A stretch of 16,098 bases of DNA from Tubulinosema ratisbonensis. Lineage: Eukaryota > Microsporidia > Tubulinosematidae. Location of the stretch: assembly GCA_004000155.1 (NCBI GenBank), contig RCSS01000276.1, positions 1 to 16,098 on the forward strand, in the 5' to 3' direction. Both the position numbers and the translations under genes were made by a program. Below, piece after piece: positions 1,084 through 14,945 of this stretch (position 1 is the first letter of the stretch; each line of letters starts with the position of its first letter). Under the pieces are notes generated by a model, which searched no databases, was not told the DNA's origin, and saw only the letters and a program-made list of their open reading frames with translations.

Positions 1084-2181
1084 TTAATNAATGACTTCTT
1101 CTTGTATTTTACTTTTTAAAGCTGGATCCTCCATAAACTCTTCCACATCTTCTTCTTCGACAGATGGTAACTTGGTCAATTTTTTTGCTTCGCTTTTTTT
1201 TGGAAGCTCACATTGCTTTTCATTTAGTTTAGGATTGCAAAACATACAATAATCAGCAGAACTAGCGGCAGAACAACTTCTTTGTCTTTTTTCATATGAT
1301 TTATTTGGTATCCCTCCAGCAAAACGCTCTTCACTCAATGAAGGTGTATTGTCATCTGATTCGTTGATTTCTGGTAAATAAATTCTTTGCAAAGTTCTTA
1401 AACAACAAGTACATGGTGCAGATCNACATGAAACTATGATATTATCACGAAGGAATGATTTTGTAATGTTTATAGGTCCGTTACAATTTTTTTGAGGTCC
1501 TATGTCAGGTGAAGAGTGCAGTTTTAATTTTTTGAGATGAGCTTGTATTCTTCTTGTTTCGGATTTAGAATAATTTTTTTCTTTTTTAAATCTTTTTTCT
1601 GTGTCAGATGAAGAAGAGAATGCTGATGAATTAATATATTTTCTTCTGGCTGATAAGGTTGATGCCTTTTCATAGGATTTTAGATCGGAGAGTGTGTCTT
1701 CGTCGGAATCGGTTGACTCTTCTTGACAATGAGTTGGCTTTTTGCTAGATTTTAAGAGAGGTTTTGTATCATCAGAATTTTTCAAAGAATCGGTCTTTTT
1801 ATCATTTTTCAAAAAATTCTTAAATTTTGAAGTTTCGTCGGAAACAGATTCCTTTTCAGATTCTTCGTTAGCAGATTCTTTATTTTTCTTCCCGGAAGCT
1901 TCTTTTTGTTCACTTTTAATTTTGAATTCTTCTTCCATTTCTTTTACAGAAGCATCAATAACCTTTCCAGCCATATCATAAATCATTCTCTTTTGTTCTT
2001 CTAATTGTAAATGTTTTCCTTCTTTATCAATATCAAAACCAAAGTATTTTAAAGATAACTCCTTTGCTTTTTCAAAATCGCCGTTTTCTATGTGACAACG
2101 TACCTTAATTGCTAAAACAATTTTGTCTTGTTTTGGTTTATCAGTCAAATAAACAAGATTCAAAAACAGAAAGAAAAACAT
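1084..2181 (-). CDS. Putative secreted protein, tandem family member 1; Cys-clustered charged protein
   Basis: Encodes 365 residues; I recognise no named family. The start is ATG at 2181, directly preceded by CCC (2182-2184), with a TATA-like stretch about 25 nt upstream. Residues 1-12 are a short hydrophobic leader (MFFFLFLNLVYL) that could be a signal peptide or an anchor. Residues 15-92 look like a helical domain (IENGDFEKAKELSLKYFGFD). It aligns by eye with the start of the gene at 3757-5970, including SLKYFGFD against TLEKFNLD and a closing SEQ. Residues 93-210 are Lys/Glu/Ser-rich and probably disordered. Residues 229-325 hold two cysteine groups: C252, C257, C259, C260, then C303, C312, C315, C324. 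They could bind metal or form disulfides. Basic stretches near 196-220 resemble nuclear targeting signals. Codon 253 (N at 1425) reads NGA, so one possible base gives a stop. The last sense codon is also ambiguous (N at 1089). Confidence 0.85.
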   Translation of the reverse strand: MFFFLFLNLVYLTDKPKQDKIVLAIKVRCHIENGDFEKAKELSLKYFGFDIDKEGKHLQLEEQKRMIYDMAGKVIDASVKEMEEEFKIKSEQKEASGKKNKESANEESEKESVSDETSKFKNFLKNDKKTDSLKNSDDTKPLLKSSKKPTHCQEESTDSDEDTLSDLKSYEKASTLSARRKYINSSAFSSSSDTEKRFKKEKNYSKSETRRIQAHLKKLKLHSSPDIGPQKNCNGPINITKSFLRDNIIVSCXSAPCTCCLRTLQRIYLPEINESDDNTPSLSEERFAGGIPNKSYEKRQRSCSAASSADYCMFCNPKLNEKQCELPKKSEAKKLTKLPSVEEEDVEEFMEDPALKSKIQEEVIX

Positions 2182-2231
2182 GGGATATTGCTTTGACTTT
2201 TTTTTATAAAATAAATGTTCTTTATTGATCT
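2182..2231 (-). promoter_or_regulatory. Start-proximal CCC, TATA-like box and upstream motif of the 1084-2181 gene
   Basis: On the coding strand CCC abuts the ATG (plus-strand GGG at 2182-2184). A TTTTATAAA-like stretch lies at about 2204-2212. At 2217-2231 the coding strand reads AGATCAATAAAGAAC, a looser version of the AGATTCT[TA]AAGAAC motif upstream of the genes starting at 5970 and 8550. It is about 12 nt closer to the start here. The CCC signal next to start codons is known from microsporidia; the role of the upstream motif is inferred from its recurrence. Confidence 0.6.
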
Positions 2232-2536
2232 TTTTTTGTTATTTATTCTAAGATTTATTTTTTTAAAAATTGATAATTTTATAAGATAACAGTTTACCAA
2301 ATAAATTAGTGGAGTAGATTTTTAAGGATATTTTACGTTTTAAATTTAGAAATTTAGGTGTTTTATTTAAAGTCTTCTAGTATTTTTATTCAAAGAATTT
2401 TTTAAGCAGTTTTTGTAGGTTTCGATTATGAAATATAAAGTTAAAAATTAAACTAAATTTTATGAACAGTTTAAATGTGAGAATTATAAACAAAGTAATT
2501 TTTAAAAAAACTTAATTTAATTCTTATTTTTTAAAT

Positions 2537-2606
2537 GATAAATGTCTCGGATAATTAATGTCAATAATCATACTAAGCTGTGATTATAACCAAAATGACA
2601 TTTATC
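2537..2606. repeat. Nested inverted repeat (potential hairpin or cruciform)
   Basis: The outer arms GATAAATGTC (2537-2546) and GACATTTATC (2597-2606) are perfect 10-bp reverse complements. Inside them ATAATCA (2564-2570) and TGATTAT (2581-2587) form a second perfect 7-bp pair around a 10-nt loop. The internal spacers are 17 and 9 nt. Two nested perfect stems with mixed base content are more than simple A/T runs would give. It could be a small hairpin RNA, a protein-binding palindrome or a relic of a miniature element. Confidence 0.45.
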
Positions 2607-3041
2607 TATTAAATATTTTAAAATTTAAAAATTAATACATTTATACTTAGGATAAATAAAAAATGATGCAAAATAAAATAGTTTTTTCTGAAAAGTAGCA
2701 TTTTAATTAAAAATCCTAAACACTAAAAAAACAATTTTTTAAAACCTAATAAAAGTATATAAAATGTTAAAAATGGGTTTAATTTAAGAATTGTTGTGAG
2801 GATTTTATAATGTTTGTTAAAAAATATTTAAACAATTTAGTCAAATAAATATCATAAAAAAGATTTTTAGAATTTCTTGCGAGAAAAGATTCTGTAATAA
2901 TGAAACTTTTATTCTGATCTTAAATTTATTAAATAAAAATAATAATCAGGTAAAAAAACAATACAGATATAATAGACAGATAAAAATAGAAGAAATTTTG
3001 ATACGTATTGCATTATAAAAAAATTTTTTATAAAAGAATTA

Positions 3042-3692
3042 TAGAGGGGTTAAAGTATAAAGCTATGAATTATAATTCAGATAAAATGATTTGAAGATAA
3101 TGATCATTAACTTGGTTTTTTAGAAATTTGTTTTAAAATTAACTTTTTACCATACAAATATAATACTGTAGAGATGTTTTTTTGATACACAATAACTTTT
3201 TTCAGAAGTTAAATATCTAATCTATCAAAATTCTGTATTAACTAAAAAATTTTATATTTTTATCATTCTAAATATGAAAAAATTTATTACTTAAGGTAAA
3301 GTGAAACTAAACACTTTCAAAGATTAGATATCAAACTGCATATTCTTTGGTATTAATTTTTTTAAGATCGCAAAAAAGTGTTATTTTTTTTAAAAAAATT
3401 TGTAAATATTTTTATCGGATGTGGTATTCCATCAGATTTTTGTACAAAATTGTAGACTTGCCTAAATTTTATATAAAAAATGTATTTTTTGCTAATGAAA
3501 ATCATGAGCGTTTCAAAGATTTTCAATAAAAAATATATTATATTTGAATATTATTTTTTTAAACATTTAATTATACTTGATATATCATCAACAGAAACAG
3601 GAAATCTTTTTTGAAGTATAATAATACCAATTAAAAACTTTATAAAAAGTAAAATAAATATTATCGGAACTAAAATAATTAAACCCCTCTAC
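3042..3692. repeat. Inverted TAGAGGGGTT pair, possible decayed element ends
   Basis: TAGAGGGGTT at 3042-3051 recurs as its reverse complement AACCCCTCTA at 3683-3692. A similarity further inward, TTCaGATAAaAT against TTCcGATAAtAT, hints that the match extends past the decamer with an indel. The enclosed 630 bp contain only a short open stretch at 3347-3529 with no ATG start and no recognisable transposase motif. An old miniature inverted-repeat element is possible, and chance is not excluded. Confidence 0.25.
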
Positions 3693-3756
3693 ATTTAAAT
3701 TTAAACGTTTTAAAAATTCTACAATAAATTTTTTAAATAAATAACTTTTAATAAAA

Positions 3757-5970
3757 TTATTCATTTCTTTTCAACTTTGGCGAGTTTGAAGTAGATTCTC
3801 CCCAACCAAACATTTCTTTTCGCCCGTCAAGACCTTTTCTTTGTATCGACCATGCACTACAAGACTGTCTTAAAGATTTATCAAGTTTCTGCTCAAGTTC
3901 TTTTTTACCCTCCATCTCTTCATTTCCATCAGAAACAGCAGCATTACTCGCAGTCCATGATTTAGGTTCGGTTGTTGGACTTAAAAGTCTTTGAATTTTC
4001 TTGCTCCTTTCTTCTTTTAACCTTTTTATTGCTTGATTATACCCCGTTTTAAGGGATTTTGCATTAAGTTTTCTTAAGCCGTATTTCATAAATACATCTT
4101 GAACAACTCTTACCTTTAATGCAAAGTTTTTTTCAAAATTTTCTTTAGCGATACCTGAAAGTTTATTTTGATTAATTGAAGAGCTTTTTACAAATTTTTT
4201 TACTAAAAGTTTTGCTTTATTATGAGCTTTCGTAGTTAACTTTTCTAATTCTTTCTTATTTAATTTGGCTGATAATTGTTCTACAAGCATTTTTCTAGAC
4301 AAAACATCTTCAGAGGTGTTTGATAAGCATGATGATGCACCGGCTGAAACAACCTCTGTATTCGTTAAATCATCCTTCTCTTTGATCCTTTGACAATACA
4401 ATAAAGCATCTTCTGAGGTAAATGATTTGGTAGAACATTCCATATTTAAATCATCAGATTCGGGGTTATTTCCTGCGGGTATCAAAACTTCCAAAGGCGT
4501 TAACTCTTCTTGATTTTTTTGTGGAATAGATTGGAAAGAACATACATGGGCACCTTCTTCATTCACATCTGAACCTAATGTATTTTTATTAAAATGGTCC
4601 ATTGGTATAAACCCTCCAAAACATTCTGGAATGTCAACTTGTGATTCTGTTCCTTCTGAAATATCATCTTGTGTGCTTGTTTCAACAGTAAAACTATCTG
4701 TTTGATGGCTGCTTTCTTCTTCGCATACAGTATCACTTGATTGAGCTATTGAAGATTCGACCTTACATAAACCTGATTCATCGAACTCGTTTTTTGCTAA
4801 ATTTTCATGTGAATTCGATATTTCATGGACTTGATGTACATGCTCAGACGAGAGTGGTTCGATTGTTTCAGGATTTGAAGATGATGGTTTTATTTCTTGA
4901 GCGGGAGGAGGTGGTAGAAATTGTGAGCTCTCATCACAATTAACAACCGTAGGTGCTGTAATTTCAGGACAAAGGGGGGTTTGATTAAACTCTGTTTTAT
5001 CTTCAATTATCAATGGTTGATCTTCTTTGCAACAAGTATAAGTAGAATGAACTCCGTGAGTAGCCTTCTCTGCTTCTTCTTCAATTTCTTGATCATCTTT
5101 TTTAGAAACGGCATTTGCTTGAAGTACTGAACTAGGGTTTACTAAATCTTTAGTATCGATAGAGACTTCTTCACTGTCGACTGTCAATGAATTTTCAGTC
5201 TTAACGGCCTGCTTTAAATCTTCGGTTTCAACCATCTCAAGAGGTTCTACTTTAGGTAGTTCAACAGATGGAGTAAAATCTCTTAACAAAACAATTGGCT
5301 GAGCTTGTAAAACAGCAGGGCCCTCTAATGTTTCTGAACTCACCGTTACATATAAATCCTGAGGATTTTTAAAATCATTAAGCTCTACTTTTTCCCATTC
5401 CTCTTGTGGTATTACTAATGCATTCTCATTTTCAGAACTGTCACATAGTCTCTCTCCTAGTTTCGCTATGGGAACTCCATGCAGAAAGTAACTTTTTGAA
5501 GTTGATTTTTTTTCTTGAGGGTTAGAATTTTGTGTTTCAAAATCACTTCTGTTACTGTTTATAGAATTTGAATCTTTCGTTTGGTGATCCAAAGTCTCTT
5601 CGTTTTCATTTCTTGGAATTCCTTGAGCTTTACAGTCTAGGACATCTTTCATTACAGCCCTTTTAGGTGGCTGACTTAATCTTTTTTCGCGTTGTTCTGA
5701 TATTTTAATCAACTTATCAGTAACGGTCTCTAAACAAGCCGCTGATCTTATTTTAATAGTATCTACAAGAACAGAAAAGGTATCTTCAACAGTATTCCCC
5801 GGAAAAGATTTTTTCGTATCTAAATTAAACTTTTCCAACGTTAATCTTGATACACCATCATAATCCTTACAGATAATCAATCCTAATAGTTTGTTTAAGT
5901 CACCTATTTCTTTTAAATCCCTTTTCGCTCTGCTCAAATAAACAGAATTAACTAATAAAAAAAATAGCAT
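3757..5970 (-). CDS. Putative secreted protein, tandem family member 2; long acidic tail
   Basis: Encodes 737 residues. I chose ATG 5970 over the upstream in-frame ATG at 6006 because it is directly preceded by CCC, has a TATA-like box 20-28 nt upstream, and begins the hydrophobic leader MLFFLLVNSVYLS; the longer start would put basic residues and a Pro before it. Residues 14-92 form a helical domain (ICKDYDGVSRLTLEKFNLD) alignable with the 1084-2181 product. Residues 95-555 are acidic, Ser/Thr/Glu-rich and probably disordered, with scattered Cys and FLPPPPAQE at 351-359, resembling an EVH1 (Ena/VASP) ligand. Residues 557-665 are basic and helical, ending in KRLKEERSKKIQR, a possible bipartite-type nuclear signal. 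RQSCSA (701-706) recurs in the other two members as R-S-C-[SD]. GC content is visibly higher than in the genes at 376 and 13308. No enzyme motif was found. Confidence 0.9.
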   Translation of the reverse strand: MLFFLLVNSVYLSRAKRDLKEIGDLNKLLGLIICKDYDGVSRLTLEKFNLDTKKSFPGNTVEDTFSVLVDTIKIRSAACLETVTDKLIKISEQREKRLSQPPKRAVMKDVLDCKAQGIPRNENEETLDHQTKDSNSINSNRSDFETQNSNPQEKKSTSKSYFLHGVPIAKLGERLCDSSENENALVIPQEEWEKVELNDFKNPQDLYVTVSSETLEGPAVLQAQPIVLLRDFTPSVELPKVEPLEMVETEDLKQAVKTENSLTVDSEEVSIDTKDLVNPSSVLQANAVSKKDDQEIEEEAEKATHGVHSTYTCCKEDQPLIIEDKTEFNQTPLCPEITAPTVVNCDESSQFLPPPPAQEIKPSSSNPETIEPLSSEHVHQVHEISNSHENLAKNEFDESGLCKVESSIAQSSDTVCEEESSHQTDSFTVETSTQDDISEGTESQVDIPECFGGFIPMDHFNKNTLGSDVNEEGAHVCSFQSIPQKNQEELTPLEVLIPAGNNPESDDLNMECSTKSFTSEDALLYCQRIKEKDDLTNTEVVSAGASSCLSNTSEDVLSRKMLVEQLSAKLNKKELEKLTTKAHNKAKLLVKKFVKSSSINQNKLSGIAKENFEKNFALKVRVVQDVFMKYGLRKLNAKSLKTGYNQAIKRLKEERSKKIQRLLSPTTEPKSWTASNAAVSDGNEEMEGKKELEQKLDKSLRQSCSAWSIQRKGLDGRKEMFGWGESTSNSPKLKRNE

Positions 5971-6042
5971 GGGATAGAGATTTTGTTTCTTTATAAATCT
6001 GATCAAAAATTCTTTAATGTTCTTAAGAATCTTATTTTATCA
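5971..6042 (-). promoter_or_regulatory. CCC signal, TATA-like box and AGATTCTTAAGAAC motif
   Basis: Plus-strand GGG at 5971-5973 gives CCCATG on the coding strand. TTTATAAAT at 5990-5998 is TATA-like. At 6019-6032 the coding strand reads AGATTCTTAAGAAC, starting 49 nt upstream of the ATG. The surrounding 33 nt (6010-6042) match 28 of 33 positions of 8589-8621 upstream of the gene starting at 8550, which has the same motif 48 nt from its ATG. The motif contains the palindrome TTCTTAAGAA, compatible with a dimeric regulator. Confidence 0.6.
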
Positions 6043-6744
6043 AATTGAGAACTAAGAACTAAAACTATTTTTATTTAAAAATTTTTATGATAAAAAAATT
6101 TTTATCAAAGTTTAAATTTGTAATGTTAGATTTAATAAAAATTACCTTCTTAACTTTAATATTATTTTTTCATTCTTAAAAAACTTTAGAAAAAAATTTA
6201 ATTTTTTGCAAAAAAATCTATTTGAAAATAAAAAAAAAATTTTAGTTGATATTTCATATATAAATTTTCTGATAACAAAATTAATTTTACAATTTGAAGT
6301 ATATTTTTTCTCGAAAAAACTTACATTTTTTTCTTTTACTGTATTAAAAATAACATTTCTAAAAATTTCATATATTAAAAGGACTATGATTAAAACATTT
6401 CATAACATATTAAATTTAATGATAAGATTTTAAACAGGCGAGACGTTTTTCAAATTAAAAATAGTATTTAAACATAGTAAATATTAAAATAGTAATCAAT
6501 AATTTACAAATTTTAAAAATACCTATTTAAAATTTTACTGTTTATTAAAAAAAAATAAAATTGTAGTACAGAGAAACAAATTTAAATAAAATAATTAAGA
6601 TTTTGTAAAAAGGGGTGTCTTTAACAATTTACCATAGGATATTTTAAACTAAAAAATAAATATTAAAATTTTAAAGTTAAATTGATATTTATTTTACCAT
6701 AAAAATATTTTAAAAATATAAACTTATAAATTTCGCGCAATCAT
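6043..6744. other. AT-rich spacer without a supported gene
   Basis: No ATG-initiated, CCC-preceded ORF lies here. The open frame at 6206-6433 begins with TTG and encodes only Phe/Ile/Lys-rich low-complexity sequence. The notable item is the TGATAAAAA palindrome at 6088-6107. Confidence 0.6.
6088..6107. repeat. TGATAAAAA-aa-TTTTTATCA palindrome
   Basis: This is a perfect 9-bp inverted repeat with a 2-nt centre, 118-137 nt upstream of the start at 5970. The same two arms occur upstream of the start at 8550 (8822-8830 and 8857-8865), with a further inverted repeat inserted between them. Flanks also match: AAAATTTTT before and AATTTGTAA after. It may be a regulatory site or simply a trace of the duplication that made the two genes. 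Confidence 0.4.
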
Positions 6745-8550
6745 TTATTCACTCTCATTAGAATCAGTTTTGTGCTCAAGAGAAATGTCGCTTTCATCAT
6801 CACTGATAACTTCCTTTGAGGGTTCAGGTTGAACTACAGGTTTAGAGCCGCCTTTAGATAGCTGGGCAGGTTTTTCTGGGACACGAGGACGAACAGCTGG
6901 TCTACTTTGAGCTTTGGGATGCAAAACAGATGGATGATCAGGTACAACAGGGGCAATTCTTCTTATTCTTTCTGATTTTGATTGTTCAACGTTCGAATCA
7001 AATGATTCCTCTTCACCGATTGGTAAAGGCTTTCGGGACTTTGAAATACACCTTTCGAATCCAAATCTTGGATCATCTGCAGGATGTAAATTTTTAATTT
7101 TTGAAACTTTTACCTTTACCGGGAGTTCTGGAGCTTCTTCGATATCAAAATCTTGTTCATTTTGATTTTTCTGTACATACTTTTTTGTTGGAACAGCGGG
7201 TACGCGTTTTCTCTCATTTCCGCAAAAATCTTCTTCTGCGTCTGGGTTGTCTGATTCATCTTGTTGAGGAGTAAAATTTTCTTTAACTGAAGGAGCCTTT
7301 TTTGTTTTGTTCACTTGACTGTATAAATGTTCGGAAGGAATCTTAGTATCTACAGGATCAATAGGGGCAGCTTCTGCCTTTTTCCTACGTAAATTTAATT
7401 TATGAGCAATTGCAGAAAAAGGATTTGGGCTCTTGCTTCTAATACGGTCTTCAGCTTTAGGATTGTTCATTCTCGAGGTTCTTCCAGAGGGTTCAGGCAC
7501 GTTTTCAGACTTTGATTTGGCTTTCCTTTTTTCAATCATTTTAGCGATTCCTTTTGGTTTATCATTCACATCTGGTAATTCTTCGTAATCGCTTGTTTTG
7601 ACTTTTCTTGTAAATCGGGGAATATGCTCTCCTGGAGCATTTGCATTTTCATCAAATTCGGTTATTTCAGCATATTCCGAAATTTTTTTATTACCAGCCC
7701 TCGAGCTTCTTTTTTGAGGCTTCTCAACTACAATGTCCTCTTCAAAATCGGGTAATTCCTCATAAGCGCTTTCTGGCTGCTTTCTTCTGTATTGAGCACT
7801 TGATCTGACAGATTCAGAACCACTATACTCTTCTGGCCTTTCACCTTTTGACCTAGTTGATTTTTTTAAAGGTTTACTTGGTAAGTCCTCTTCATAATCG
7901 TATCCCCTTTCTCTGTAAGCACCAGTTCTTCTTTGATCAAAATGTCGACTTGTTGATACTGAATCATCATCTCTCAATTCGTCACAACTTCTTGATAACT
8001 TTTTTGATTGAGAGATTTTTGGCTTAACAGACTTAGCTCCTTTGGTATCAGAATCACTTGATTCCGATGAATCAGGCTGAGCAACTTTTTGAGATTTTGC
8101 TGACTCTTCAACATAATCTCTTGTCAATCTTCCTTGCCTTGTTGATCGAGCATTTTGAGAATCACCAAGATACTCTCCGACTCTTTCATCCGGCTCTGGG
8201 TATCTTGAAGCACCTTTACTTCTCACTTGATGAGATGTTTCATTACTTTTACCGTGTGAAGCCCTAATAAGTTGCACTTCATTCTGGTAAAAGTCAGCCA
8301 ATTCATCAGAGCTTCTACTTAAATCTTGAAGAAGTATTGTCTTTACAGCTGTAATTCTTTCATCATCATCTAAATTTGGGTCATTAAAGATCCTTGTAAA
8401 TTGAACAGGAAATAAATCGTAAAACTTTGTTAAAGCCAATTTTATCTTATCATCATTAAGAAGATCCAGTATTTCATTTTTTTGTATGATTTCTTCAATC
8501 AAATTGTTTCTACTTAAAAACACATGGTTAAACAACACAAACAGTAACAT
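6745..8550 (-). CDS. Putative secreted protein, tandem family member 3; Tyr-motif repeats and SH3-type proline motifs
   Basis: Encodes 601 residues. ATG 8550 lies 5 nt after CCC (coding strand CCCTAAACATG), with TATAAATA 20-27 nt upstream. The leader is MLLFVLFNHVFLS, matching the N-x-V-[YF]-L-[ST] ending of the other two members. Residues 14-95 are helical (LLNDDKIKLALTKFYDLF). The rest is charged and probably disordered. Three units of about 30 residues start at S261, S291 and S320 with SAYEELPD, SEYAEITE and SDYEELPD, each fitting the ITIM-like pattern SxYxx[LI]; a looser YDYEEDLP is at 217-224. LSRS[SC]DEL occurs twice (77-84, 185-192). SH3-ligand-like motifs follow: KRVPAVPTK (448-456), RIAPVVP (531-537), PAVRPR (551-556) and PRVPEK (555-560). 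KRKAKSK (341-347) and LRRKK (387-391) are nuclear-signal-like. The stop overlaps AATAAA. These short motifs are common in disordered sequence, so a host-signalling role is only a hypothesis. Confidence 0.9.
   Translation of the reverse strand: MLLFVLFNHVFLSRNNLIEEIIQKNEILDLLNDDKIKLALTKFYDLFPVQFTRIFNDPNLDDDERITAVKTILLQDLSRSSDELADFYQNEVQLIRASHGKSNETSHQVRSKGASRYPEPDERVGEYLGDSQNARSTRQGRLTRDYVEESAKSQKVAQPDSSESSDSDTKGAKSVKPKISQSKKLSRSCDELRDDDSVSTSRHFDQRRTGAYRERGYDYEEDLPSKPLKKSTRSKGERPEEYSGSESVRSSAQYRRKQPESAYEELPDFEEDIVVEKPQKRSSRAGNKKISEYAEITEFDENANAPGEHIPRFTRKVKTSDYEELPDVNDKPKGIAKMIEKRKAKSKSENVPEPSGRTSRMNNPKAEDRIRSKSPNPFSAIAHKLNLRRKKAEAAPIDPVDTKIPSEHLYSQVNKTKKAPSVKENFTPQQDESDNPDAEEDFCGNERKRVPAVPTKKYVQKNQNEQDFDIEEAPELPVKVKVSKIKNLHPADDPRFGFERCISKSRKPLPIGEEESFDSNVEQSKSERIRRIAPVVPDHPSVLHPKAQSRPAVRPRVPEKPAQLSKGGSKPVVQPEPSKEVISDDESDISLEHKTDSNESE
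7510..7770 (-). repeat. Coding tandem repeat: three degenerate units of about 30 residues
   Basis: Inside the 6745-8550 gene, residues 261-347 divide into three units with tyrosines at 263, 293 and 322, a spacing of 30 and 29 residues. Each opens S-[ADE]-Y-[EA]-E-[LI]-[PT]-[DE], continues acidic, and closes with a basic run (KPQKRSSR, RFTRKVK, KRKAKSK). Protein similarity exceeds nucleotide similarity by eye, which suggests an old duplication with the Tyr core retained. Confidence 0.6.
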
Positions 8551-8621
8551 GTTTAGGGTAATTCTTCTCTATTTATACCTTTTTTAAGTTCTTTTACGTT
8601 CTTTAGAATCTAAATTTATCA
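8551..8621 (-). promoter_or_regulatory. CCC signal, TATAAATA box and AGATTCTAAAGAAC motif
   Basis: Plus-strand GGG at 8556-8558 puts CCC 5 nt before the ATG. The coding strand has TATAAATA at 8570-8577. At 8598-8611 it reads AGATTCTAAAGAAC, 48 nt upstream of ATG, nearly the same distance as the equivalent motif before the 5970 start. The wider block 8589-8621 is 28/33 identical to 6010-6042. Confidence 0.6.
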
Positions 8622-8951
8622 GAACTTAGATCGATTCTTTTCTTTTTTAAATTTTTTTTTGTGATAATTTTTTCAAAAAAATTTTTAGTTTTCAATTTTT
8701 TTTAGGTAAATTTTGCATTTTTCTAATAGTAAATCTGATATTCTTTGTTTTTAAGTAATTTTACTATGTTTTTTAAAAATTTTTTTGATTCTTTACAAAT
8801 TTAAGATATAAAATTTTTTCATGATAAAAAGGTAAAAAATTTTTTATCCTAAAAAATTTTTATCAACAATTTGTAAAAAAAAATTTATTAATAAAATAAT
8901 ATTTTATTTTACTACAAAAGAAAAATAAATTTTATAAAAATAATATTTATT
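8622..8951. other. AT-rich spacer with one nested inverted repeat
   Basis: There is no ORF of note between the upstream motif of the 8550 gene and the SNARE stop codon. The stretch is mostly T-rich runs plus the inverted repeat at 8822-8865. Confidence 0.6.
8822..8865. repeat. Nested inverted repeat with TGATAAAAA arms
   Basis: The outer arms TGATAAAAA (8822-8830) and TTTTTATCA (8857-8865) are a perfect 9-bp pair, identical to the palindrome arms at 6088-6107. Between them GGTAAAAAA and TTTTTTATCC form a second arm pair with one bulge. The 44-nt block lies 272-315 nt upstream of the 8550 start and just downstream of the SNARE gene, so it could serve as a 3' end structure of one gene or an upstream element of the other. 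Confidence 0.4.
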
Positions 8952-9500
8952 TTATTTCATAATTTTAAATATAAAGAAATAAAGAAATATTATTAAAACC
9001 ACAAAACATACAAATAATAAATAATCACTTTTATACCTGGAAGTAATCTGATTAATCATTCCTTCACTAAATCCCATCTTTCTTAACCCTTCAGCCACTT
9101 TATTCTGTGCTCCTTCTAATATTCTACCTTGTCTTCTTATATTATCCAATGAATCAATAGCTGAGCTAAGATACTCATTTGCTCTTCTTTTGCCAAGATT
9201 AAAGAAATCTTCTTCCTCTTCGCACTGTAAATTAATATTCTCAGAGTAAATTGAATCATTTAAATCATTTTGTTTCTTACTTCTACCATTTATTACCTTC
9301 CTAAGATTGTTGATTGTTTCTTCGTGCAAGGAATATTCTTCAGGTAAGAATTCTTGTAAAATTTGTTTATTACTTTGTAAAATATTAGAATAAGAGGTAA
9401 GTAGTATTGTTAACGTTGGTATTTGTTCTGTCTCTATCTTTTCTTCTAATTCTTTTTTCTTATCTTTGAGTATCTGAGAGATTTCTTTTATGTCTTTCAT
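8952..9500 (-). CDS. BOS1: Qb-SNARE of the Bos1/membrin type (ER-Golgi transport)
   Basis: Encodes 182 residues. Proteins of this family sit in ER-Golgi membranes by a C-terminal anchor and contribute one helix to the four-helix fusion bundle in early secretory transport. Residues 1-75 are helical. Residues about 105-158 form the SNARE motif, with Q124 (IRRQGRILEG) as the likely zero-layer glutamine and hydrophobic or small residues at the +1, +2 and +3 layers (L128, A131, V135). The order L-E-G-A-Q-N-K...M-G-F-S...I-x3-R-x3-D (128-159) follows membrin's L-K-G-x-Q-K-K...L-G-L-S...I-x-x-R...D. Residues 160-179 are one membrane segment ending three residues from the C terminus, as in tail-anchored SNAREs. 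Length is somewhat under the 210-245 of animal and yeast members. The start is ATG 9500 with CCC one nt upstream; the stop is followed by AATAAA. Gos1 or Vti1 are less likely alternatives. Confidence 0.7.
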   Translation of the reverse strand: MKDIKEISQILKDKKKELEEKIETEQIPTLTILLTSYSNILQSNKQILQEFLPEEYSLHEETINNLRKVINGRSKKQNDLNDSIYSENINLQCEEEEDFFNLGKRRANEYLSSAIDSLDNIRRQGRILEGAQNKVAEGLRKMGFSEGMINQITSRYKSDYLLFVCFVVLIIFLYFFIFKIMK

Positions 9501-9504
9501 AGGG
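9501..9504 (-). promoter_or_regulatory. CCC start-proximal signal of the SNARE gene
   Basis: The coding strand reads CCCTATG, placing CCC one nucleotide before the start codon. This agrees with the other four minus-strand genes and supports the chosen start. No clear TATA box or AGATTCT motif is seen upstream, unlike the three tandem secreted-protein genes. Confidence 0.6.
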
Positions 9505-9887
9505 TATTTTTTTAAAAATATTTGTTAAAAAATAATTTATTATTTATTTAAAAAACAAAAAAAATATTCTTAGAAAAAATAAATAAAATTTTTATAATTT
9601 GGCTGTGTATTTTGAGTATAAAATTATTTTTAATGCTGTTAAATAAGTCTTTTTATAATAATTAAGAATGTTATTTCTCAAATAAGAACATATAACATAA
9701 AGTTTACACTTAATACTTATTTTATATTTCTTTCTAAAAAAGATTTATTTTATTTTACATTCATTAGGAAATAAAATATTTTTAAAGAAATTCTAATTTT
9801 AAAGTGTTATTTTAAAATTTAATTTCGTTTATTTACAATTTTATTTTAGTTTGAAAATATAATTGATTTCCACACTAATATTATAAT

Positions 9888-9938
9888 TGCTGGGATGCAA
9901 TGCAGCCTTTTGGGTAGCTTCTGGTTTTAGAAGTTTAT
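9888..9938. other. Less AT-rich patch with small hairpins, unexplained
   Basis: Within very AT-rich sequence this patch contains the palindrome-like TGCAATGCA, a GCTG...CAGC pair around it, and a perfect CTTCT-ggtttt-AGAAG hairpin. It could be a fragment of an old repeat or a small structured RNA. Nothing identifies it further. Confidence 0.25.
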
Positions 9939-10229
9939 ATTAGAAAAATAATTGTTTTGATTAAAGGTAAAAAAGTATATAATACTTTTATTAATTAAAG
10001 AATAGGTTTAAAGAAATGTTATTCACGTGCAAATGTCGAGTGCTCACTATCCAACGATAATAAAATTATTCATAATTATTATTGTGTTATGTATCAAGAT
10101 TTAACCCAAGTCCTTATTCCGACTTAATCTGTTAGAAGATAATTTCTAAGATTTTTTATTTTTCTTAAATTACTTCCAGAAAATTTTTAATCAACAATGA
10201 AAGTGTAATTAACACATGATAAAATAAAA

Positions 10230-10405
10230 TTAGGCAGTCAATAGAGTGGACGAAGTGGGATTTAGCAGGTACAAGGCTCGCAGAATCTTGAGCTATACCT
10301 AATTCTATAAAAACATATTTTACCATCTGTTTTTTTAAACAAGGTGATATATTTTATATAGAATGTTTGAAAAAGATCTGTGTATGGGTTTTCATCATTA
10401 GCAAA
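10230..10405 (+). repeat. Dispersed repeat copy A (inverted partner at 15765-15947)
   Basis: The sequence beginning TTAGGCAG-t-CAATAGAGTG and running through CTCGCA, ATCTTGAG and TATACCTAA matches the reverse complement of 15765-15947 at about three quarters of positions over its first 73 nt. Weaker alignable similarity continues for about 100 nt more (ACATATTTTACC, AAGGT, ATATAGAA, TATGGGTTTTC). Homology may extend on both sides in decayed form. No ORF lies in it. It looks like part of an old mobile element or a dispersed repeat family. Confidence 0.65.
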
Positions 10406-13307
10406 ATAAATTCGTAAAGCATATTATTTAAAAATATTCTTTGTAACCAAAACAATGTATTTTCGTAAAAAGAAATATAAAATTTAATGCGATAAAACGA
10501 GTAATTTACCTAAAGAAATTTGTTAAAAACTTTATATATAAATGACTTTATAAGGTCTACATTGGTTGTTTTTTGATTTATTTTCTTTAGATTTAAATCA
10601 CTTACTTAGAAACTAAGGAATAAACAAATTTTATGTCGTAAACTTAATTATTTTTGTCAGATCTGATAAGAAATGTTTATGATAAGGGGGTTTTCAAAAT
10701 AAATTTGTTTTCATTGTAAATAAAAAACTGATACATACTTTTCTTTGTTAAAATTTTTCTCGCTGAATGTCGTATGTTAAAATAAGAGTAGCTAATCTTT
10801 ATTAATAATTTTATCTTAAAAGATTTGTTTCTTATAGTTTATAACAATATTTGTAAAAAATCTTATAATACTAAAACATTTTAAAAATTTTTTTCTTTTG
10901 TCTGGGTTTTTATATAACTTTGATTTTATAGTACTGCTTAAGATTTTAAATAGATCATCGAAATATTATAGAAAAATATTAAAGGAGGTTTTTAAGTTAC
11001 TCTAGAGATAAGCCAGTTTCTTGTTCAGAATGAAAATTTAAAATCGTTAGACTAAGTTAAACGTTAAAAGAAAAAATGATACGTGATGATTAAGGTTTTA
11101 ATTTCTCTCTTGAAATTCTTTAAAATGTGTATTCATAAAAATCAATTTTATAAATAGATATGTTTTTAATTCATATTCTTTCCTCTTAATGTTTTCAATA
11201 CAATTATCTTGATGTTATATAAAAGATTATTTGATTAGACTTGAAAGAAACATACCATAATCAGTGTAAAAAATTTGATCTAATAGCTGAAGTAAAAGTA
11301 AAATTTTTACCAAATTAAAAAGTCTTTAGTATATTATATTTCTCAAAGGTAAATACTGTAAATAATTTTACTTGAAAAATTTCTTTATAATACATTGGAA
11401 CTCCAAATAATAATCTTACTTATTAAAAATTAAAAATTACAAAAACTTTTTTAAAGCAAAGGTTGAGGCTTCTAAAAATGACACTGTTGGTTATATTTAA
11501 AGGCATAAAAACAATTTTAACAAATTTGTTTGAAAGTAAAATTTTAAGATATCTAAAATTTTTTAAAAAATAAGAGTTTTCTGTTACTTCCTAGAAAAAA
11601 GATCAATAAAAGCTTAAGCGAAATTAGTTTATTTTTTATAAATTAATGATGTTGATTTTTGTAAAAAAAAGCATAAATTATAAATTGAGCTCAGTATTCC
11701 TTAAAAAATCTTTGATTTCAAATTTTTTTTGAGCAGATAAAACAATTTAACTATGATGGGAAAATATTATTCATTTTTTATACTATAATTAGATTTTTTT
11801 ATTATTTACTATTTTTTCAAACAGTATTGATTTATTTGAATATGAATCTTTTTAAAAAATTCAATATCTGCTTTTACTAGATTGTAGTATTTTTGCAAAC
11901 TATTTTACCTAAATTATAATTTAAAAACAATTCCAACAAAACAGTGATAAACGCAAACATAGATTACACCAAGTAACATTTTATAATACAATTTTTATTG
12001 ATCAAAATTTAATTACAAAGATTGAATTCTAAGGTTTTACTTGCTTTAAAATTTCATTCTGTTTCTTTTCTTGTAGTGCTTTCTATAACTTAATATACAT
12101 AAGTAAAATGATTTGGCTTTTATATTTACTAATTTGCACATGTTAAAATTATATTTAAAAGAAATTTATAGGTTCTTTAATTTTATCACAAAATTGTACT
12201 TAAATTATATATTGCTAAAACTCTATCTAATATAGTATTATTGCCTTTAGATAATGTATGTAGTTGATTAACAATTTCGAATTTGGTTCATATCATTTAT
12301 GGTTTGAAAATTAATTTAAAGACAATATGTTTTATCCTATTGATGATTTCAACCACAATACAATGACTAACTTTTTGATTTGTAATTTTTTTAAAATCAA
12401 GGAAGTTCTACGTATTCAAATAAATAATTATCAAAAAATATATATTGCTGTTAAAAAGGTTTAATCCCCAAATAGAAAATAATAAAAGTGATTTTATAAT
12501 CTAGTATATTAAAAATTATCAATCCATGATTACAATATCCCATTTTACAGAACTTTATTATCTAAAAAAATAGAAATTGTGAACTTATTTAGTCAAATAA
12601 ATCTTTAAATAACTAGTATACCAATATTTTAAAACATAAAAATTGAGTTTTTTAATTAAGTTGGAGATTTTTTTTCTTTCTTTAAAATATTGCAAAAAAT
12701 TTTTTAATTAGACACATTTTAGTATATTTTTGTGCCTGTAATAACAGCACAAATTTATAAAATATATTGAAAAGTTTTAATTCGTAATTTAGATATTTAA
12801 AAGTAAAGAAATTATTGTATAATCAAAACAATAAAATTTATTATTATAATTTTTAAAATATTCCAAGAATATATTAAAAAATCAAACATTCTTATGATTG
12901 TAAAAGACAAGATAGATTTTCTCAACAAGTAAATAACTAATTTTTGTATTTTAGCAATTTTTCTTTTATTAAAAAATGAGAAAGATAAAACTACAAAATA
13001 AGTATAGTTAAAATAAAAAGATATTTTACGAAATAAATTATTTAATAACAACAACAACCTATAAAGAGCGAGTAAAAAGGCCTTTAATTTTTTTGTTTGG
13101 ATTTTTTCGTCGTAATCGCATAAAAATGCAAAATTTATATATTAATCAATTATTTTATTTCTCTAAAGTAAAAATACAAGGTTGTTAGTCCTCTTAAAAT
13201 ACTATAAAAAAATTTTTATTTTACAAAAACATAGTTTTTAATTGCATTTTTAAATTTTCTAATTATGTTATAGATAAAAAACATGAAAAAATAGGATTTT
13301 AATTTTT

Positions 13308-14945
13308 TTAATTAAAAAAGCATACCATATTAATTTTAGAGCCGTTTGGGCAAGCCATGCTTATTGGGTGTTGATTAAATTCTCTGAATTTTTGACATGC
13401 ATAGTCATTATATTTGCTTGCATAAATTTTGTTTTTATATTCAATTACATAACCGTCACTGTGATAAATTTCATATCCTTGAATATTATCCCCGCCATTT
13501 TCTTTTTTAGGTTTTTTTCCTAATGCTTTAGAATAGTTCTTCCTTTGAAATATCTTGGTTTTTCTAATTTCATCGTGTAACATTTGATGTTCCAAAAACT
13601 GTAATTCAAAATTTTTTTCTAGATAGTTTTCAAGCATGTTTATTGTTTCTTGTAAATCATTCAAATTTAAAGTTTCTCTTTGAGTTTTAAAGTCGTCAAA
13701 TTTTTTAATAAACCATTCAAAAAAATCTAAAACTTTTTCAAAGTAACTATCAAAATTAATATAACACATTTCTGTTGCCTTTTTAATGTTGTTAAAGAAT
13801 TTATTTTTTCTTTCTGTTTCTTTTAATGAACCACTTTTAAGAGATTTGTATGGTTTTTTTCTTTCCAAAATCGCTTTTTCAGCTAAACTTTTATTTATAA
13901 TTCTCTCAATCTCTTTTAATATGTTTTTATCATAATTTTCAATTGTAGCACTTAAATCATTCTGGTTGTTTTTACTTTTAAATTCAGTAATTTTATTTTC
14001 TATAAGGTATATTTTTTTATTTACTGTTTCACTTATAGTTTTTAATCTGTCTCCTAATTTTAGTATCTCATATTCTAATGTATTTTTAAATTCATTGTAA
14101 TAGCTTTCTTCAGATTTTAATTGTAGAGTGTTATAATATTCTAAATATTGCGAAAATTGCGTGCTTAGGTTTTTAAATTTCTTGTAGTCTTCTTCTTTAG
14201 TATATAAAGCATTTTCTGATGTAACATTATTTATAGATAATAATGTATCTTTAGATTGGTCAATAAAATCAATTATTTTTAGAATTTCACTAGGATTTTC
14301 AACCTTTTCTTTCATAGGAGATTCTGTTACAAACTTTTCAAATTGAGATTTTTTGGTTTTATCGGTTAAAAAGGAAATCTTTTCATCATTTTTTATAACA
14401 TTCTGTAAAGTTTCTAACTCATTTTTGATTTCCTCGATGCAACAATTAAAATTTCCTAAAGTTTTGTTGAAAAAATCAATATCTTTTTTCATGTTACAAA
14501 TGTCTTTAATTGTTTTTTTTCCTATTACTTGAACTGTAGATATTTGAATTTTTTGTGATTTAATTTTATCATATTTCTCCTTAAGTGAGTCTAAATTACT
14601 TTTCAGATTTTGAATATTTTTCTTAATAGATTCAATATTTGGTTTATTTTTTAGAATTTTTTCTAAAAAAAGAATTCGAGAGTGAAGTAAATAAATTATA
14701 TCAGAATCTTTTGATATAATTTTATACGGGTCTGTAAAACTAATAAATTTATTACATTGATTATTTACTTCAGTAATTTTGCTGACATCGTCATTTTGTG
14801 TTATTTCAAATGCTTTAGAATCAAATGTGCATGGTTCTTCTTTGTGTATTCTTTTGAGTATGTTGAGTGTTTTAGTAACAAACTTATTAATTTCACTCGC
14901 AGTATCACTAGAAGTATAACATAATCGTAGTAAAAAAATTAGCAT
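13308..14945 (-). CDS. Putative secreted coiled-coil protein with small Tyr/Cys-rich C-terminal module
   Basis: Encodes 545 residues of unrecognised family. ATG 14945 is directly preceded by CCC. The leader is MLIFLLRLCYTSS, short and hydrophobic like those of the tandem family, but the following region shows no clear similarity to theirs. Residues about 75-470 are almost all helix with several coiled-coil-like stretches (around 85-135, 165-190, 250-360, 425-465), suggesting an elongated rod. A Lys/Gly linker (467-487) leads to a compact end module (488-545) rich in Tyr with C517, C532 and C542, probably beta-strand containing (GYEIYHSDGYVIEYKNKIYAS). A rod plus terminal module suits a surface, spore-wall or polar-tube-associated protein, but nothing specific proves it. 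Composition is Lys/Asn/Ile-rich and strongly AT-biased, unlike the genes at 3757 and 6745. The upstream AGATTCT motif is absent. Confidence 0.85.
   Translation of the reverse strand: MLIFLLRLCYTSSDTASEINKFVTKTLNILKRIHKEEPCTFDSKAFEITQNDDVSKITEVNNQCNKFISFTDPYKIISKDSDIIYLLHSRILFLEKILKNKPNIESIKKNIQNLKSNLDSLKEKYDKIKSQKIQISTVQVIGKKTIKDICNMKKDIDFFNKTLGNFNCCIEEIKNELETLQNVIKNDEKISFLTDKTKKSQFEKFVTESPMKEKVENPSEILKIIDFIDQSKDTLLSINNVTSENALYTKEEDYKKFKNLSTQFSQYLEYYNTLQLKSEESYYNEFKNTLEYEILKLGDRLKTISETVNKKIYLIENKITEFKSKNNQNDLSATIENYDKNILKEIERIINKSLAEKAILERKKPYKSLKSGSLKETERKNKFFNNIKKATEMCYINFDSYFEKVLDFFEWFIKKFDDFKTQRETLNLNDLQETINMLENYLEKNFELQFLEHQMLHDEIRKTKIFQRKNYSKALGKKPKKENGGDNIQGYEIYHSDGYVIEYKNKIYASKYNDYACQKFREFNQHPISMACPNGSKINMVCFFN

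Follow-up and report, generated by a model that had tools for sequence, protein, structure and literature searches.

Three tandem genes on the minus strand

The window analyzed here is the whole of contig C119 (16,098 bp), which belongs to a genome set of 236 contigs and 4.1 Mb. Its subject is a row of three genes, herein named g1, g2, and g3 (Table 1). An earlier reading made from the letters of the DNA (hereafter the sequence-only reading) had described three consecutive minus-strand genes at this place, and their coordinates, strands, and frames proved right. All three proteins open with 13 uncharged, mostly hydrophobic residues—the leader—followed by an N-terminal region and a tail. They probably form a family, one that rests on separate edges and not on one three-way domain: g1 and g2 are linked by the leader and a modest N-terminal domain signal, g2 and g3 by the leader and an upstream noncoding block.

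The genome has a G+C content of 22% (200-kb sample). It is taken to be microsporidian because a match to the spore-wall family MICSWaP (PF17018) on contig C185 has an expect value (E) of 3e-60, over the curated cut-off, and 0/14 control genomes give such a match. Two other markers, small-subunit rRNA and PF03219 (the latter silent in its controls as well), did not help to place the lineage. Undetermined bases are scattered at 361–400, 1089, and 1425 and were left as X; two fall inside g1, one of them in the codon adjoining the stop.

Table 1. Features of the g1–g3 locus. Leader scores are ungapped BLOSUM62 sums; upstream positions are counted from the ATG.
Feature	Position	Strand	Remarks
g1	1084..2181	-	open reading frame (ORF), 365 amino acids (aa); short hydrophobic leader, N-terminal domain, Lys/Ser/Glu-rich tail
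g2	3757..5970	-	ORF, 737 aa; short hydrophobic leader, predicted helical N-terminal domain, long Glu/Ser-rich tail
g3	6745..8550	-	ORF, 601 aa; short hydrophobic leader, helix-rich N-terminal region (low confidence), Pro/Arg/Ser-rich tail
g1 leader, residues 1–13 (MFFFLFLNLVYLT)	2143..2181	-	42 vs g2, reached by 0/231 background pairs
g2 leader, residues 1–13 (MLFFLLVNSVYLS)	5932..5970	-	42 vs g1, 39 vs g3
g3 leader, residues 1–13 (MLLFVLFNHVFLS)	8512..8550	-	39 vs g2, 27 vs g1
g1 N-terminal domain, residues 14–105	1867..2142	-	similar to g2 14–105, p = 0.009 (modest; 24 comparisons)
g2 N-terminal domain, residues 14–105, predicted helical	5656..5931	-	model with predicted local distance difference test (pLDDT) 82.7, predicted template modeling score (pTM) 0.64
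g3 N-terminal region, residues 14–105	8236..8511	-	domain-family membership unproven; no sequence signal; pLDDT 62.6
g2 upstream block, -119 to -37, common to g3	6007..6089	-	composition-aware score 81.1
g3 upstream block, -111 to -36, common to g2	8586..8661	-	composition-aware score 81.1
Element GATTCTTAAGAAC at -61 of g2	6019..6031	-	contains exact GATTCTWAAGAAC copy
Element GATTCTAAAGAAC at -60 of g3	8598..8610	-	contains exact GATTCTWAAGAAC copy
g3 tyrosine motif SAYEEL, residues 261–266	7753..7770	-	motif scan
g3 tyrosine motif SEYAEI, residues 291–296	7663..7680	-	motif scan
g3 tyrosine motif SDYEEL, residues 320–325	7576..7593	-	motif scan
g3 PxxP cluster, residues 447–560	6871..7212	-	PxxPx[RK] at 451, 474, 555; [RK]xxPxxP at 448, 531

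Leaders, upstream DNA, and N-terminal regions

Background ORFs were drawn from 26 stretches (260 kb of the 4.1 Mb): 117 nonoverlapping ORFs of at least 80 aa, overlapping ones being dropped. By the rule used, 22 of them carry a short hydrophobic leader (95 were left out), which gives 231 leader pairs. The best of these pairs scores 29 over residues 1–13, and both the g1–g2 and the g2–g3 scores exceed all of them. The likeness within these two pairs hence goes beyond that seen among signal peptides of a single genome; that of g1–g3 does not. Shuffling of the leaders yields z values of 5.8 (g1–g2), 5.5 (g2–g3), and 1.75 (g1–g3), a null that is too lenient in a genome where many proteins open with a short hydrophobic leader. 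The sequence-only reading had seen leaders of one design in all three proteins, which stands for g1–g2 and g2–g3 and does not rise above background for g1–g3. Farther along the contig lies g4 (13308–14945, minus strand, 545 aa), which has a short leader (MLIFLLRLCYTSS), a long Lys/Ile/Asn-rich body, and Cys near the C terminus; a Pfam scan of it gave nothing above cut-off. Its leader scores 5, 15, and 12 against g1, g2, and g3 and is outside the group.

The leaders of g1–g3 likely provide entry into the endoplasmic reticulum (ER), as predicted from their sequence. A second membrane-like stretch was not found in any of the three proteins, the best 19-mer outside the leader reaching 0.59–1.05. 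Leaders of this genome are very short—a median of 12 residues stands ahead of the first charged one in the 22 leader ORFs—and, thus, standard signal-peptide predictors may miss many of them. A limited search in an open-access subset of the literature found no paper on short signal peptides of microsporidia. Short hydrophobic starts are also present on an Ire1-like ORF (Ribonuc_2-5A, E = 1.3e-26) and on a mannosyltransferase (Glyco_transf_15, E = 5e-117, matched from residue 12) of the same genome. Ire1-like proteins and mannosyltransferases work in the ER or Golgi. ER entry alone does not make an effector and fits staying inside the parasite too.

Upstream DNA was compared over 150 nucleotides per gene with 96 background regions, that is, 4,560 pairs (21/117 ORFs dropped); ORFs dropped here and from the composition test described below were short, had many N or X, or were cut upstream. 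In a composition-aware score, which is preferred because C and G each make up 7–8% of the upstream bases, g2–g3 lies above all background pairs (maximum 69.9). At the conserved residues among positions 2–14, synonymous codon differences, counted by eye, amount to 6/8 for g2–g3 vs 2/7 for g1–g2. From these few sites, the split of g2 and g3 looks old and their upstream block looks constrained. Both genes are predicted to be co-regulated through this block. Closer to the start codon, the triplet CCC stands immediately 5′ of the ATG in g1 and g2 and five bases 5′ of it in g3. In the genome sample, 11/22 leader ORFs and 27/95 other ORFs have it no more than 12 bases from the ATG. A CCC-like signal, which the triplets of g1–g3 resemble, is described for the phylum Microsporidia in the available part of PMC2803860.

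Five exact copies of GATTCTWAAGAAC exist in the 4.1 Mb, two of them in the window. A role as genome-wide effector promoter was considered and rejected: no leader gene was found behind the other three copies, and the element hence marks this locus. Behind the copies on C13 and C17, no ORF of at least 60 aa follows on that strand within about 2 kb. The C17 copy (3403–3415 of stretch L035, minus strand) is followed 103 bases on by a 26-codon frame that has a hydrophobic, leader-like start and is closed by a stop. On C162 (stretch L036), an AT-hook–like ORF (from 11979, minus strand) has its first ATG 48 bases after the start of the copy; it lacks a leader and contains repeated RGRP motifs.

In the coding part, BLASTP aligns g1 with g2 over residues 1–96 (E = 5e-4) and g2 with g3 over residues 1–48 (E = 7e-4). 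The proteins were also compared part by part by shuffling (leader, residues 14–105, and tails; 24 comparisons in all). With the leader removed, residues 14–105 give p = 0.009 for g1–g2, 0.32 for g2–g3, and 0.74 for g1–g3. The direct alignment of members 1 and 2 proposed in the sequence-only reading is, thus, recovered, modestly so without the leader. Its more distant third member is tied to g2 by the leader and by an alignment that ends at residue 48, and the domain itself is not shown for g3.

The model of g2 residues 8–105, with g1 as the only other row of the alignment, is all helix (helices 2–26, 30–41, 45–48, and 54–92). For the N-terminal region of g3, modeled alone, helices are predicted at 3–17, 21–24, 27–39, 41–49, 55–70, and 76–92. 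The parallel helix limits of both models are suggestive only, the g3 model being weak and the limits being compared without superposition. A helical region of about 80 residues, claimed earlier for all three proteins, is hence well modeled in g2 and of low confidence in g3. Comparison of the g2 and g3 models with the Protein Data Bank (PDB) gave no convincing fold match. A CTLH/TPR-like N-terminal domain was entertained after a likeness to CTLH helices had been seen by eye in part of g1, and rejected; Pfam and PDB profile searches gave no support for it. At E ≤ 10, Pfam returned nothing for the g1 domain and sub-threshold chance matches for the others (best 0.062), and a PDB search with the N-terminal profile returned noise only (best E = 0.11, Mediator subunit 4).

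No described family was recognized in the sequence-only reading, and the searches agree. Whole g1–g3 have no Pfam match at E ≤ 1, and a scan at E ≤ 10 of the three N-terminal domains, together with the C-terminal parts of both g1 and g2, placed none of them in a known family; DUF1609 (InterB), ricin B lectin, leucine-rich repeats, and spore-wall families are all absent from these scans. In the protein collection, g1 has no relative among 3,990 candidates, g2 none but itself among the best 7,987 candidates scored, and g3, searched with residues 1–130, none but itself. Sequence searches of the PDB with g2 and g3 found no relative. Protein searches of the own genome return the query alone and are insensitive, because they miss even the neighboring paralogue; a profile search of the 117 background ORFs gave one weak match, L020 (E = 0.0011, best single domain 0.013).

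Tails, composition, and the motifs of g3

The three tails are mutually unrelated (shuffling p = 0.94, 0.13, and 0.29), as the sequence-only reading had it. A Cys cluster is present in the g1 tail at residues 233–324. Composition was compared with 99 background proteins (18/117 ORFs dropped). The Ser content of the whole proteins g1, g2, and g3 lies above that of 98, 96, and 97 of the 99, and their charged content above 94, 70, and 94. Of the charged and Ser-rich character assigned to the tails earlier, serine therefore holds throughout, in terms of whole proteins, and charge is unremarkable in g2. Order-promoting residues are rarer than in all but 1, 1, and 0 background proteins, and the tails are predicted from composition to be disordered. 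The high G+C of the three genes stems from codon positions 1 and 2; at the third position (GC3) they rank above 42, 47, and 60 of the 99. With GC3 being ordinary, base composition gives no hint of foreign origin.

The g3 tail (residues 101–601) carries a set of short motifs resembling those of adaptor proteins. In addition to the proline cluster listed in Table 1, a fourth PxxPx[RK] is located at residue 224, outside the cluster. Four PxxPx[RK] and two [RK]xxPxxP, the latter with positions taken from the g3 translation, make six matches at five places, since the pair 448/451 overlaps. In shuffled tails, three SxYxx[LI] motifs are reached with p = 0.012 and six PxxP matches with p = 0.0058; both totals are jointly reached in 1/5,000 shuffles. 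Counted with the pattern [SILVT]xYxx[LIV] of immunoreceptor tyrosine-based inhibitory motifs (ITIMs), the 501-residue tail has three matches, all within 65 residues, against an expectation of 0.47 (p = 0.011). A repeated motif in a predicted unstructured tail is what characterizes ITIM-type docking tails, a likeness of function and not of descent. Among 98 proteins (93 ORFs from the first 20 stretches plus five window proteins), g3 alone holds 4/8 PxxPx[RK], 2/2 [RK]xxPxxP, and 2/4 Y[DE][DE][LIV] matches. The bacterial-type EPIYA motif in its exact form was not found in any of the 15 tyrosine contexts of g3. Since the motifs were counted among 14 in three tails, they are a lead only; this candidate motif set is the most interesting and, at the same time, the least certain addition made here.

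A proposed secreted tandem family and its alternatives

The best explanation, to which we assign a probability of about 0.5, is that g1–g3 are an old, lineage-specific tandem family, secreted toward the host, with predicted disordered tails acting as unrelated binding scaffolds. An old tandem duplication would have given the three neighboring genes. Their leader would take the products into the ER and then out toward the host cell, which we infer they reach. The N-terminal domain would be a compact helical bundle, for which g2 provides the only good model. Promoter, leader, and N-terminal domain would, as the conserved 5′ part, serve as a cassette for expression and delivery, and the tail would be the part that keeps changing. 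In g3, host tyrosine kinases may phosphorylate SAYEEL, SEYAEI, and SDYEEL, where host SH2 proteins would dock, and the PxxP cluster may recruit host SH3 proteins, giving an adaptor-like activity. Tandem leader-bearing duplicates elsewhere in the genome (on stretches L028 and L021) support the family part of this explanation. What the sequence-only reading had proposed as a secreted tandem family is, thus, kept as a family of separate edges with plausible secretion, and not supported as one domain running through all three members.

A number of observations weigh against this explanation. The g1–g3 leader score is reached by 2/231 background pairs, and the background leader L007 scores 31 against g1, above g3; g3 is, therefore, tied to g1 via g2 only. 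BLASTP finds nothing at the N terminus between g1 and g3. Once the leader is removed, the g3 region has no sequence similarity to the g1/g2 domain, and its model (pTM 0.53) is too weak to show one fold. Even the g1–g2 domain signal is weak alone, because among these comparisons a p of 0.01 is also obtained for the g2 tail against that of g4, an unrelated protein. Upstream, the composition-aware scores of g1–g2 (34.9, reached by 340/4,560) and g1–g3 (29.8, reached by 1,194/4,560) mean that the block is not common to g1. The plain match/mismatch score of g2–g3 (43) is reached by 227/4,560 pairs and fails to single out this pair because the DNA is so A/T-rich; the results of both scores stand. 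An uncalibrated blastn match of g1–g2 across -51 to +37 (E = 1.5e-5) was set aside because chance-like matches of equal strength also join the coding DNA of g1 to the upstream DNA of g3. With regard to secretion, Tyr/Phe at -3 before Ser/Thr is no textbook cleavage site, and the Ire1-like ORF and the mannosyltransferase have Lys at position 7, unlike g1–g3, so the comparison with them is a loose one. Secretion equally fits the spore wall or the ER/Golgi. As for the tails, the observed score of internal repeats is reached by 16, 8, and 13 of 40 shuffles for g1, g2, and g3, the repeats of all three being no better than shuffles. Single p-values of 0.003–0.012 fail correction for the 14 motifs tried in three tails, and the same number of tyrosine motifs occurs, in a span of 80 residues, in an ABC-transporter ORF (L015).

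Among the alternatives, the one that survives best is a family of related tandem genes whose products enter the secretory pathway and stay with the parasite, for instance as disordered, Ser-rich parts of its spore wall, its polar tube, or the coat of its plasma membrane. It has in its favor the short hydrophobic starts of ER/Golgi proteins in this genome, the order-poor composition, which suits wall or matrix proteins as well, and the presence of another short-leader protein, g4, on the same contig. However, g1–g3 have no spore-wall Pfam match, the sole MICSWaP match lying on another contig (C185), and the motif set of g3 would be typical of cytosolic signaling tails rather than of wall proteins. 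We consider retention unlikely, at perhaps one chance in a few. Clearly less probable is a capture of the 5′ cassette, in which promoter block and leader were copied before unrelated coding sequences without any whole-gene duplication. Similarity is indeed strongest at the 5′ end, the g2–g3 likeness ends at about residue 48, and the tails are unrelated; yet the g1–g2 similarity reaches residue 96, one unusual composition is common to all three proteins, and the synonymous codon differences of g2–g3 argue for an old event and not for a recent copy. Convergence—unrelated neighbors whose short signal peptides look alike as those of one genome do—would fit the frequency of such leaders, the g1–g3 and L007 scores, and the plain upstream score, but is improbable given the leader scores of g1–g2 and g2–g3, the top-ranking g2–g3 upstream block, and the g1–g2 domain similarity that persists without the leader.

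The preferred reading of a secreted, lineage-specific family has precedents. Microsporidian host-exposed proteins are described, in the accessible portions of PMC5423893 and PMC10393165, as clade-specific, signal-peptide–bearing, and often adjacent families; by the definition of the former, a large gene family needs 10 or more homologues within a single species. Like NemLGF and host-exposed families as portrayed there, g1–g3 have a hydrophobic N-terminal leader, no known domain, neighboring members, and no relatives in the searches made; they differ in having three known members with unequal evidence and in that host exposure is inferred. The portion of PMC3749934 at hand describes two further cases. 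Ricin B lectin-like secreted proteins form local tandem clusters by duplication in microsporidia, tandem and secreted as proposed for g1–g3; they have a predicted lectin domain, whereas g1–g3 lack such a Pfam match and have order-poor tails. The leucine-rich repeat family of Spraguea lophii, with a predicted signal peptide in 37/52 members, is lineage-specific and mostly leader-bearing like g1–g3, which have no leucine-rich repeat match. The likely small, old family is new as sequences and ordinary as a kind of parasite family.

Other local families were seen in the background stretches. L028 contains a tandem short-leader pair (2248–3405 and 5077–6249) that is 34% identical over 383 columns, with no Pfam match above cut-off for the former. 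In L021, four small related proteins are clustered at 5060–7463, several with hydrophobic starts; a weak, below–cut-off match to a C-type lectin (E = 0.039) was obtained for one of them. A dispersed family of about 660 aa (L024, 520–2499; L029, 142–2121; L019, 5104–7092) has hydrophobic starts and a likeness that is mainly C-terminal; its L024 and L029 members have no Pfam match. Two small neighbors on L020 (6786–7250 and 7683–8078) have hydrophobic starts and a C-x2-C ... C-x-C cluster each. L012 contains tandem aquaporin-like genes (481–1254 and 4063–4833; 69% identical over 242 columns), the former matching the MIP family with E = 1.1e-27. Within the window itself, a small SNARE-like protein is encoded at 8952–9500 on the minus strand (V-SNARE_C, E = 2.9e-4, below the curated cut-off); it has a strong membrane segment at the C terminus and is presumably of the Bos1/membrin type. 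Over the adjoining 3.8 kb or so (9501–13307), no ATG-started ORF of 80 aa is found, the rest of the contig being gene-bearing.

A bolder proposal concerns g3. It would be the eukaryotic equivalent of those bacterial effectors that act through tyrosine motifs: a scaffold exported via the parasite's ER into the animal cell, which has three tandem tyrosines of the ITIM type and a proline cluster for SH3 binding on a single disordered tail and rewires host tyrosine-kinase signaling, encoded in a locus with a constant promoter/leader/N-domain cassette and a tail replaced from gene to gene. We regard this as a long shot, about as doubtful as the capture of a 5′ cassette or slightly more so. In bacterial EPIYA effectors, as presented in the accessible part of PMC3593179, tyrosine motifs phosphorylated in the host recruit SH2 proteins, and g3 would work alike; in contrast to them, it has no EPIYA, carries a hydrophobic leader instead of relying on type III/IV delivery, and its phosphorylation is proposed, so the relation is functional analogy and not membership. 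Among the matches listed in the open-access literature, as far as their available text goes, no microsporidian tyrosine-motif, SH3-binding, or short-linear-motif effectors appear.

Microsporidia live inside animal cells, and, to our knowledge, a host target is known for only a few of the effectors proposed in them. To the picture of this locus, the present analysis adds the noncoding edge between g2 and g3 and the set of adaptor-like motifs in g3. With its similar 5′ ends and unrelated tails, such a small, linked family is a defined test case for how families of this kind diversify, and the tyrosine and proline motifs of g3 offer a directly testable guess on the binding of host SH2 and SH3 proteins.

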